From NCBI GenBank assembly GCA_026004795.1, contig BPJV01000002.1, positions 248,001 to 312,000 of the forward strand: a stretch of 64,000 bases of DNA, written 5' to 3'. The position numbers and the translations under genes are program-made. Shown here piece by piece: positions 26,513-29,972 of this stretch (positions within the stretch are counted from its first letter, which is position 1; each line of letters begins with the position of its first letter). Below the pieces are notes generated by a model that worked only from the letters and a program-made list of their open reading frames with translations, was not told where the DNA came from and ran no database searches. The DNA comes from Pirellulaceae bacterium. GTDB lineage: Bacteria > Planctomycetota > Planctomycetia > Pirellulales > Pirellulaceae.

Positions 26513-29500
26513 ATGGACCACACCGTGCGTTCGAACGTAGATGTCGAGTGGGCGATAACCGAAGAGGATGTGATTCGCCACTGTGGAGATCGCCCACCGC
26601 CGAGAACCAATTTGGTGGAGGTCCTGCAGCATTGGGCCACGGTGCGCCCCGATCGTGTCGCCTTTTACTTTACGGATGGTGATGACCCAAGTGCCGACAT
26701 TTCCATCACGTTCGCAGAGTTGGACGAGGCAGCGAGAAACGTCGCCGGCTACCTACAGAAATACGGGAAGGTCACCAGTGGTGCCCGCGTGCTCCTGTTG
26801 TATCCCCCCGTCCTCGATTTCGTAATCGGCTTTTTCGGATGCTTGTATGCCGGAGCAGTCGCCGTACCTGCTTTTCCACCGCGGCGCAATCGGAAAGGCC
26901 AACGGATTCATGGCATCGCTCACGATTGTCAGGCCCAAGTTGCCCTGACCAACAGCCATGTGCGGCAGCAAATCGAGGGTGACGTCAACTGGGTGGAATG
27001 GGAATCGATCTCGATCATTGCCACCGATGTCCTCCGCGGCCGAGAATACGCTGCCCAGTGGCAGCCTCCGAAACTGAACGAAGGGGACTTGGCCGTCCTG
27101 CAGTACACCTCCGGTTCCACTGGGCAACCAAAAGGCGTGATGCTTTCGCACGCGAATCTGGTCAGGAACTGCGAACTGATCATGGTGGCGTTCGAACCGG
27201 ACCCAAGCTCGGTGGGCGTCAGTTGGCTGCCTACCTACCACGACATGGGCCTGGTGGGTGGAATTTTGGAACCGGTGTTCGTGGGCTGCCCCATGGCGCT
27301 GATGAGCCCCATGGCGTTTTTGCAGAAGCCGATACGATGGTTGCGAACGATTTCTCGGTTTGGTGCCTCGATCAGTGGGGCGCCGAATTTTGCCTACCAA
27401 CTCTGCGTGGACAAGGTCACCGACGAGGAATTGTCAGGGATCCGGTTGGACACTTGGCGTACGGCATTCAATGGTGCCGAACCGGTACGGGCGGCGACGT
27501 TGCGCGAGTTTACGAGTCGATTCGCTGCGGTAGGCTTCGATCACCATGCCTTCCTCCCCTGTTACGGGATGGCGGAGACGACGTTGATCGTGACAGGGGG
27601 ACCGCAAGGGGAACCTCCGGTCATCCGATCGTTTGACGCCGCAGAACTGGATCAGCGGCATGTGGTTTGCCTTCATGACGACGATGATCGGGTCTCCGCC
27701 GAGCATCGCGGCCAGGGAGCAGTTCGTGAGCTTGTCGGTAGCGGCCAGGTCCTGCCCGGCGAAACGGTGCTGATCGTCGACCCGGAGACTTTACAAGAAT
27801 GTGCATCGGATCGTATCGGAGAAATCTGGATTCAAAGCCCCAGTGTCGGTCAGGGGTATTGGCAACGGGAGGAAGCGACCGAAGCCACGTTCCAGGCCTA
27901 CACGGCGGACGGTCGCGGCCCGTTCCTCCGCTCCGGTGACCTCGGCTTCATGGTCGACGGCGAGCTCTTCGTCGCCGGGCGGCTGAAAGACATGATCATC
28001 GTGCGCGGCGTCAACCGCTACCCGCAGGACATCGAGCAGACGGCCGAGTCGGCTCATGAGGCACTGCAAAGCGGTCAGATCGCTGCCTTTGCCGATCATG
28101 GCGAGGACCGGGATCGCTTGGTGATTACGGCCGAGGTGCAGCGGGCCGCAGACGTCGATTGGCAGGAGGTAATTAACCGCTATCCGTCGCGAGGTTTCGG
28201 GCCAGCACGAAATCATGCCCGATTCGGTGGTGCTCGTACGATTCGGCACCCTGCCGCGCACCTCCAGCGGCAAGATTCAGCGGCACGCCTGCCGTGAGGA
28301 ATGGCGCCGCGGTTCGCTGAAAGTCGTCGCCGAATGGAACGGCTGGGAACTGTCCCTGCCCGACGCCGAGCCGATGATCGCTGCGTCGACGGCGCGCAAA
28401 TCGACTGCTGCGGCGGAGAAGACGCCTGACCCAGAGATCGTGGACGTGGTTATCGATGCGGTGCGTGCGGTGGCGCAAGAACGTGCCAAGCAACTGGAAT
28501 TGGATACCAACATCGTCCTTGATTTAGGTTTGGACAGCCTGGAGCGGATGCAGATCGCTCACTCGCTCGAGCAGACCTTCGATGGTCGCTTTCCCGAGCA
28601 TGTACTCAACGAGATCGAAACGGTACGAGAGGTTGCCGAAGCGATCGAGAAGTACCTGGGCAAGCAGCGCATGCGCCGTGACATGGTCCCCACCGAGACG
28701 GGCCTGAAAACGGCCGATGGCCAGCCGATCGCTGAGGAAAACTACCGATTCGAGCTCTTGCCGGAGTACCGGCGACTGAAGCGCACCATGTCGCAGTTCG
28801 AGATGACGGGTGTTCCCAACCCGTATTTTACGGTCCATGAGGGCATCGTGCGGGACACCACGCGCATCGGTGGCCGCGAATTGATCAGCTTTTCCTCCTA
28901 CAACTACCTCGGGATGTCCGGTGATCCAGCGGTAATCGCGGCGGTGGTCGATACGGTGCAACGCTACGGAACGAGCGTCAGTGCCTCGCGGTTGGTCAGT
29001 GGCGAGAAACCGCTGCATGGTCAGCTCGAACGGGAACTAGCCGAGTGGATCGGGGCGGAAGCAGCCATCGTCATGGTGGGCGGGCATGCCACGAACGAGA
29101 CGACCATCGGACACCTCGTAGGACCTGGCGATCTCATTCTGCATGATGCCCTGGCCCACAACAGCATTGTCCAGGGCGCCATCCTCTCCGGCGCACGTCG
29201 TCGTCCATTTCCTCATAACGACTGGCAAGCCTTGGATGAAATCCTGGAGGAGGTCCGCCCCAGCTACCGCCGAATCCTGATCGCCATCGAGGGCGTGTAT
29301 AGCATGGACGGTGATTACCCCGAGTTGCCGAAATTCATCGAGGTCAAGGAAAAGCACAAGGCGTGGTTGATGGTCGACGAGGCGCACTCGATCGGTACCA
29401 TGGGGGCGACGGGTCGAGGAATTGGTGAACACTTTGGAATCGACCCGCGTCAGGTCGATATCTGGATGGGCACGCTCAGCAAGTCCTTCGGTAGCTGTGG

Positions 29501-29972
29501 CGGCTACATTGCTGGATCGAGCGCGCTGGTCGAACTGTTAAAATATACTGCCCCCGGATTCGTCTTCAGCGTCGGCCTTTCCCCGCCCAATGCGGCGGCA
29601 GCATTGGCCTCGCTGCGCACCCTGCGCGAACACCCTGAACGTGTGCAGACGTTGCGGGCGCGCAGTCAGTTATTTCTCGACGAAGCGCAGGCGCAGGGCT
29701 TGGACACGGGGCAATCAGGCGGCACTCCAGTCATACCGGTCATCACTGGCAATTCGTTGCACGCGCTGCTGTTGTCGCGTCGTTTGTTCGACCGGGGGAT
29801 CAACGTCCAACCGATCCTCTATCCGGCGGTGGAAGAGTCGGCCGCCCGACTGCGGTTTTTCGTCACCTGTACCCACACCGAACAGCAGATTCGATTTGCC
29901 GTCGAACAAACCGCAGCAGCACTTCGGGAAATCCATCCAGATTACTTTGCGGCCAATCCAGCCAAGTCGTGA
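26513..29972 (+). CDS. FAAL-ACP-alpha-oxoamine synthase trifunctional fusion, one frameshift
   Basis: After repair of one extra base in the cc at 28177-28178 this is one protein of about 1152 aa with three domains. Residues 1-590 are a fatty acyl-AMP ligase: [13 protein letters not shown] (ATP loop), [26 protein letters not shown], and the C-terminal lysine in [13 protein letters not shown]. The next 80 residues form an acyl carrier protein with the phosphopantetheine serine in [12 protein letters not shown]. The last 430 are a PLP alpha-oxoamine synthase: [16 protein letters not shown], then [16 protein letters not shown] with the Schiff-base lysine (about 29482). This layout would activate a fatty acid as acyl-AMP, load it on the carrier and condense it with an amino acid (serine, glycine or alanine) to give a 3-keto-amine such as a sphingoid precursor. 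A second in-frame start at 28215 would allow a shorter ACP-PLP product if the frameshift is real. Confidence 0.85.

Follow-up and report, generated by a model that had tools for sequence, protein, structure and literature searches.

The union of a fatty acyl-AMP ligase (FAAL), an acyl carrier protein (ACP) and a pyridoxal phosphate (PLP)-dependent α-oxoamine synthase (AOS) on a single polypeptide is not without precedent. Milano et al. (2013, PMC3870968) list, in their Table 2, AOS-assigned A-CP-PLP2 proteins of Blastopirellula marina (A3ZWL3) and Microscilla marina (A1ZVW4), one of them a planctomycete, with their product given as unknown, and serine palmitoyltransferase (SPT) is named as the closest enzyme of the coenzyme A (CoA) subfamily. 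Here we analyze a gene with this same three-domain layout, located at positions 26513-29972 of a 64,000-nucleotide stretch (hereafter, the window) of contig BPJV01000002.1 from a Pirellulaceae bacterium. The first-pass annotation had described the three activities as usually residing on separate proteins, but novelty of the fused layout is dispelled by the above tabulation; the latter gives no product, distribution or link to polyketide synthase (PKS)-AOS proteins or to the eukaryotic SPT catalytic subunit (LCB2/SPTLC2), and we liken its entries to the window gene by their listed layout, not by sequence.

Caulobacter provides a second parallel. In agreement with what had been annotated, PMC9386255 describes a separate SPT, a dedicated ACP (AcpR) and an acyl-activating enzyme (AasR), the fatty acid being activated, loaded on the ACP and condensed by an AOS, although three proteins are involved and the ceramide genes CC_1164 and CC_1154 take part in the pathway. 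In our trees, moreover, the Caulobacter SPT belongs to a different clade than the window AOS. The closest proteobacterial AOS, 48-61% identical to that of the window and in the same clade, come from capsule-locus PKS-AOS pairs of the RkpA-RkpG (WcbR-WcbT) type, in which the acyl chain is supplied by a type I PKS (KS-AT-DH-ER-KR-ACP in the Rhizobium locus L062) instead of a FAAL, the AOS is a separate protein and polysaccharide genes lie nearby. Some of these rkp and wcb names are those that we take to apply to such pairs. The others follow PMC3908369 and PMC4881576.

With regard to planctomycetes, a Black Sea metagenomic survey (PMC11334938) reports Spt-like proteins in 138 planctomycete metagenome-assembled genomes (MAGs) and notes that some of its Spt homologues belong to longer proteins. 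A term search of a FAAL review (PMC11837247) returned no mention of oxoamine, sphing- or planctomycet-, and a Nostoc paper (PMC8895605) was discarded as a prior account because it concerns a stand-alone BioF-like protein, not the fusion. No functional study of a FAAL-ACP-AOS fusion was found in the literature searched, which leaves subscription papers largely outside. The fusion is a real, conserved and previously listed architecture, to which our analysis adds its spread in relatives (47/59), its placement in a mostly carrier-linked clade together with capsule-type AOS, the lack of a canonical SPT alongside it and a suggestive kinship with eukaryotic LCB2. We favor, with a probability of roughly 0.65, the reading that this gene family would encode a self-contained, CoA-independent acyl-ACP oxoamine synthase making a 3-keto long-chain base.

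Architecture and spread of the fusion

The locus comprises two overlapping open reading frames (ORFs) on the same strand but in different frames, spanning positions 26513-28297 (594 aa) and 28215-29972 (585 aa). A Pfam scan locates an AMP-binding domain (PF00501, 226 bits) in the first ORF, and PP-binding (PF00550) and Aminotran_1_2 (PF00155, 168.6 bits) domains in the second, giving the order FAAL, ACP and AOS over two frames (Table 1). The earlier assertion that three activities reside in one gene thus stands as regards the domains, which are all present here and fused in relatives, and fails as regards the window copy, which as sequenced is two ORFs. The catalytic features that had been pointed out (the PLP lysine, the ACP serine and the ligase ATP loop, the latter of 11 residues) were all located, and the C-terminal lysine of the ligase (motif TSSGKIQR, nt 28272-28274) was found to lie in the second ORF. 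By sequence, the ligase is a FAAL rather than an acyl-CoA ligase: its leading matches are to models and structures of FAALs, with no NCBIfam model exceeding its cut-off, and the best PDB matches are 7r7f (E 1.7e-147) and 3kxw (1.1e-112), together with the FAALs FadD32, FadD23 and FadD28.

The search for the fused architecture across Planctomycetes that the first-pass annotation had proposed was productive. It covered 60 genomes, those being the window's own and 59 relatives that include Pirellulaceae MAGs, Stieleria and Rhodopirellula, with frame lengths taken from the genome search and domains checked by BLAST in the fetched loci. FAAL, ACP and AOS occupy one open frame of ~1,120-1,330 aa in 47 of the 59 relatives. 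Five more harbor fragments at contig ends (G001, G014, G016, G019 and G031, with G014 judged by coordinates only), one (G023) presents a 2608-aa KS-AT-DH-ER-KR-ACP-AOS frame by Pfam plus one edge-cut frame, and six (G002, G036, G037, G038, G041 and G048) contain AOS at no more than 41% identity, none of them of the window kind. Beyond the family of the window, the fusion is present in 19/23 genomes of the same order, which the named relatives lead us to read as Pirellulales, and a wider draw on the phylum produced matches at E 1e-100 or better in 12 of 246 genomes (own included). Among these 12, L109, from another family, is also A-CP-AOS by Pfam, and the frames of L107, L108 and L110 resemble that of L109, a similarity known from the frames alone.

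Two variants of the arrangement were observed in relatives. The 1112-aa frame of L207 (G032:C10:1531000-1538500) joins FAAL-ACP to an AOS only 38% identical to that of the window, and the arrangement may accordingly have had more than one origin. Frames of 2583-2608 aa in L153 (3543-11366), L154 and L208 end in an AOS of the window kind, and that of L153, KS-AT-DH-ER-KR-ACP-AOS by Pfam, is the PKS counterpart of the fusion.

The frame error suspected in the first-pass annotation was confirmed by tblastn against intact relatives, in which the match runs in frame 2 up to ~28177 and in frame 3 from ~28173, with borders that differ among relatives by up to ~10 bases; in the second frame, a TAA at 28170-28172 just precedes the switch. 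All 16 aligned relatives (picked from the 19 loci L010-L028) cross the junction in a single frame. Since these 16 read through and 47/59 relatives have the one-frame version, we regard the fusion as the usual state in relatives and the break as private to the window assembly. On either side of the shift, five comparisons with relatives display a purifying pattern (pN 0.17-0.22 vs pS 0.74-0.82 for the FAAL side, and 0.13-0.15 vs 0.71-0.81 for the ACP-AOS side, with pS values that put synonymous sites near saturation), which indicates a window gene that is still functional or has lost its function recently. The private frameshift would be either an assembly or sequencing error or else a recent lesion. 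A real shift, which would make of the window copy a pseudogene or a pair of separate proteins, is a minority view deserving serious weight, given that the shift falls outside any long homopolymer and that the three other window genes for which the fetched relatives have clear homologues each match in a single frame. This comparison covers three genes only, however, the purifying pattern is kept in both halves, and no start of the second ORF is convincing, as its ATG at 28215 sits within the ligase tail. A programmed frameshift stimulated by the AGGAGG motif near the switch was rejected because the site lacks a frame-0 stop and the aligned relatives, being in frame, need no shift; the motif was judged coincidental.

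Table 1. Features of the FAAL-ACP-AOS locus and of the genes downstream (window coordinates).
Feature	Coordinates	Strand	Evidence
In-frame portion of the FAAL domain, with adenylation core, hinge and beginning of the C-terminal subdomain	26513..28172	+	PF00501; FAAL PDB matches; motifs at 27104 (ATP loop), 27563, 27926, 27977
Shine-Dalgarno-like AGGAGG, shortly before the frame switch	28164..28169	+	sequence
Frame switch, net one base, between ligase core and ligase C-terminal end	28173..28177	+	tblastn match borders; alignment with 16 intact relatives; sequence
FAAL C-terminal end, second frame	28215..28300	+	NF004282 and FadD32 profile tails match ORF2 residues 2-50 and 4-36
ACP domain; phosphopantetheine serine codon 28536-28538	28446..28646	+	PF00550, ORF2 residues 78-144, 45 bits
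AOS domain, PLP fold type I; PLP Lys423 codon 29481-29483; ends with the stop codon	28800..29972	+	PF00155, residues 222-564; PDB matches LCB2a and bacterial SPT; AlphaFold model nearest SPT 8guh/3a2b; tree
Gfo/Idh/MocA oxidoreductase, first gene downstream; homologue beside the fusion in L030, L033, L160	30168..31493	+	Pfam, homology
ApbE-family protein, second gene downstream; homologue at the equivalent place in L030, L033, L160	31543..32769	+	Pfam, homology

Placement of the AOS domain

In a tree of 95 rows, thinned from 123 AOS domains, the window AOS falls inside a 70-row clade with support of 100/100, and 39-row versions of the same clade are supported at 100/98 and 100/99. The clade brings together planctomycete fusions, a Nostoc fusion, PKS-AOS fusions (Planktothrix, Streptomyces and Mycobacterium) and proteobacterial stand-alone AOS encoded beside a PKS. 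Its neighbor is a group of 13 SPT rows, of which 12 exceed the NF047599 cut-off and one, from Parabacteroides, was taken to be an SPT, and a 98/90 branch separates BioF, KBL and ALAS from the window AOS. Identity to the latter is at least 47% within the clade and at most 38% for every other AOS, a gap that applies to the compared set and is undone as a general claim by matches at ~40-46% outside the tree (e.g. G020 and G058, or Acidisoma, Streptomyces and Nocardia records). A carrier domain is present on the AOS protein or on the preceding PKS gene in seven of the eight clade systems scanned with Pfam (window, L044, L109, L131, L132, L153 and L062). Standing beside the known SPTs in trees and not among them, the window AOS is neither KBL, BioF nor canonical bacterial SPT, but a member of a mostly carrier-linked AOS clade for which SPT is the nearest characterised AOS, both by tree and by model.

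The KBL-type label of the first-pass annotation was consequently abandoned: the trees led us to reject a KBL, BioF or ALAS identity, and an enzyme of BioF or KBL type, with no relation to long-chain bases, is in our view very improbable. Such an assignment can draw on the best NCBIfam score, which is that of bioF (352 bits, under the 426 cut-off), on the family profile, which ranks the BioF/KBL-type structure 8s1y (344 bits) above LCB2a, and on the fold search, but it is contradicted by the separate position of BioF, KBL and ALAS in trees and by the presence in the same genome of a distinct KBL-like gene (C8) and of a gene grouping with BioF-like rows (C1).

Within the clade, Lys423, His315 and Arg547 are identical in 70/70 rows, and His391 in 34/34 rows of another alignment; for the histidine and arginine (His315 and Arg547), we adopt the roles given in the SPT account in PMC3870968. 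Position 258 is Ser in 69/70 clade, 13/13 SPT and 5/5 BioF rows, Val in 3/3 KBL rows and Thr in 3/4 ALAS rows. Ser258 thus seems to speak against a KBL- or ALAS-like pocket without singling out serine as the substrate, because BioF rows also carry it, and serine is a plausible amino acid substrate. The Sphingobacterium SPT is the top structural match (TM by target 0.94, root-mean-square deviation 1.9) of the window ACP-AOS as modelled by AlphaFold (mean predicted local distance difference test score, pLDDT, of 80.3).

Several clade members are of interest in their own right. In three Mycobacteriaceae loci (L048, L058 and L067), a KS-AT-AOS protein is directly followed by a separate FAAL-like protein. 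On a Streptomyces anthocyanicus plasmid (L131, 10302-15140), a KS-AT-ACP-AOS protein, the AOS of which is 62% identical to the planctomycete domain, is encoded near LCP-family and MMPL genes. In Nostoc (L044, 9967-11142), a sulfotransferase gene lies directly downstream of the FAAL-ACP-AOS fusion, which hints at a sulfated product.

Predicted chemistry and alternative products

In the route that we infer for this family, including each of its reactions, the amino acid and the chain, the FAAL domain would adenylate a free fatty acid with ATP and hand the acyl group of the resulting acyl-AMP to the phosphopantetheine of the fused ACP. The PLP domain would form an aldimine with a small L-amino acid, most likely serine and then glycine or alanine, and its condensation with acyl-ACP, with loss of CO2, would yield 3-ketosphinganine or an analogous 3-keto long-chain base without CoA. 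The acyl-ACP route to a 3-ketoamine put forward in the first-pass annotation is accordant with the position of SPT as nearest characterised AOS and is likely to be the chemistry at work, from which roles in ceramide synthesis or capsule anchoring might follow. A compact enzyme of this kind, converting free fatty acids to long-chain ketoamines, would be a handy biocatalyst, and it would explain sphingoid-like lipids in these planctomycetes in the absence of a canonical SPT.

Several observations weigh against this reading. The window copy, as sequenced, parts the ligase from its C-terminal lysine, and no activity has been reported for any FAAL-ACP-AOS fusion in the literature covered. Canonical SPT profiles score far below their cut-offs on the window AOS (NF047599, 276 bits vs 500; NF047600, 298 vs 640), and three positions of the clade depart from bacterial SPT: 229, Tyr in 68/70 clade rows vs Asn in 12/13 SPT; 254, Ser in 68/70 vs Gly in 13/13; and 262, mostly Ser, Ala or Thr vs Asn in 13/13. 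BioF/KBL-type structures come closely behind SPT in the fold search, and because they match nearly as well the fold does not decide on the substrate. The eighth scanned system, the Mycobacterium KS-AT-AOS protein L048, has no Pfam-called carrier domain, and homology clusters of neighboring genes disclose no conserved reductase or acyltransferase, nor a pathway cluster, around the fusion.

The company that clade members keep raises the question of the final product. Besides PKS, AOS and SDR genes, the Pseudomonas-plasmid and Caballeronia loci include genes of the LTA-synthase family and for capsule or polysaccharide export. That of Sinorhizobium contains AOS, SDR and capsule genes along with one of 7.5 kb that carries an SDR-family annotation only (a PKS by place and size), and the Rhizobium locus has PKS, AOS, sulfatase-like and capsule genes. 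According to PMC4881576, rkp-1 products participate in the synthesis and modification of a lipid carrier for capsule secretion. The product of the fusion could similarly serve as the base in a lipid that anchors or carries a surface polysaccharide, a role proposed for the Sinorhizobium rkp-1 products, and not in a bulk membrane sphingolipid. We deem this unlikely, as the capsule family PF05159 has no match in the window's own genome and occurs, mostly as weak matches, in 11/59 relatives, as opposed to the fusion in 47/59, and as no polysaccharide genes recur beside the fusion in homology clusters, in which not every neighbor was named. The carrying over of a capsule function from Rhizobium is weakened by this same PF05159 distribution.

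Even less probable, in our view, is that the fusion feeds a small secondary metabolite, such as an amino ketone or a precursor of pyrroles or pyrazines, in place of a membrane or envelope lipid. The carrier-AOS protein PigH serves prodigiosin (PMC3870968) and FAALs are reviewed chiefly as natural-product starters (PMC11837247), but the presence in most relatives, the purifying pattern and the lack of a surrounding cluster are more in keeping with a core role in lipids than with a patchily distributed metabolite.

Genome context and eukaryotic LCB2

Profile searching of 146 genomes from the order gave no canonical SPT above the cut-off, which is passed by 13/115 genomes sampled around a Methylobacterium. 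The profile matches in the window's own genome are the fusion, the KBL-like protein and the protein that groups with BioF-like rows. Stand-alone AOS under the SPT cut-off were identified in four other genomes (L165-L168, in G429, G501, G054 and G444), and because they group beside bacterial SPT at 98/93, SPT-like enzymes other than the fusion appear to exist in some families of the order, L165-L168 being candidate planctomycete SPTs. A search for the ceramide reductase CerR, using a query taken as CerR by its place beside SPT, returned in the window's own genome a weak best match (E 1e-12, 40% over ~113 residues), and a CerR-like neighbor in one genome (L158, 31-35% identity) was dismissed as too weak.

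Eukaryotic SPT is a membrane heterodimer of LCB2 and LCB1 that uses a CoA substrate. Among PDB sequences, the window AOS scores highest with plant LCB2a (225 bits, vs 221 for bacterial SPT), and the family profile scores bacterial SPT at 355, a BioF/KBL-type enzyme at 344 and LCB2a at 342. In trees built with LCB2 rows only, leaving out LCB1, a single plant row joins the carrier-linked clade at 100/95, and three eukaryotic LCB2 rows, analyzed with the TIGR01825 set, join it at 96/88 (89, 93 and 91/84 in three variants). The alternative placement, in which the eukaryotic rows group with bacterial SPT, is not rejected by approximately unbiased (AU) tests, whose p values are 0.168 for the single plant row and 0.062 and 0.162 for the three eukaryotic rows. 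Tyr229 (in the YNYLG motif) and Thr293 are common to the clade (37/39 and 38/39) and to eukaryotes (3/3), vs 1/25 others each; unlike the clade, eukaryotes share 421F, 454S, 504S and 539T with bacterial SPT. The kinship between the carrier-linked clade and eukaryotic LCB2 is suggestive and, if true, would bear on the origin of eukaryotic sphingolipids. As a tentative and rather doubtful extension, the clade might be the closest bacterial relative of the catalytic subunit of eukaryotic SPT, and the one-chain fusion of Pirellulales might replace SPT as a CoA-free sphingoid entry in most members. If so, these planctomycetes would have a sphingoid route of their own and the source of the eukaryotic enzyme would be recast.

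Conservation of the gene neighborhood is largely limited to the genus, with β-ketoacyl-ACP synthase III (KAS III), AlgH-like and phosphoesterase genes upstream and Gfo/Idh and ApbE genes downstream. The complete block, in that order, is found in L030, L033 and L160, and the window retains its downstream half only. Being confined to the genus, this synteny was set aside. Elsewhere in the window, a 481-aa open frame (22760-24205, + strand) runs antisense over a class III aminotransferase gene (22838-24151) and is probably a by-product of GC-rich coding.

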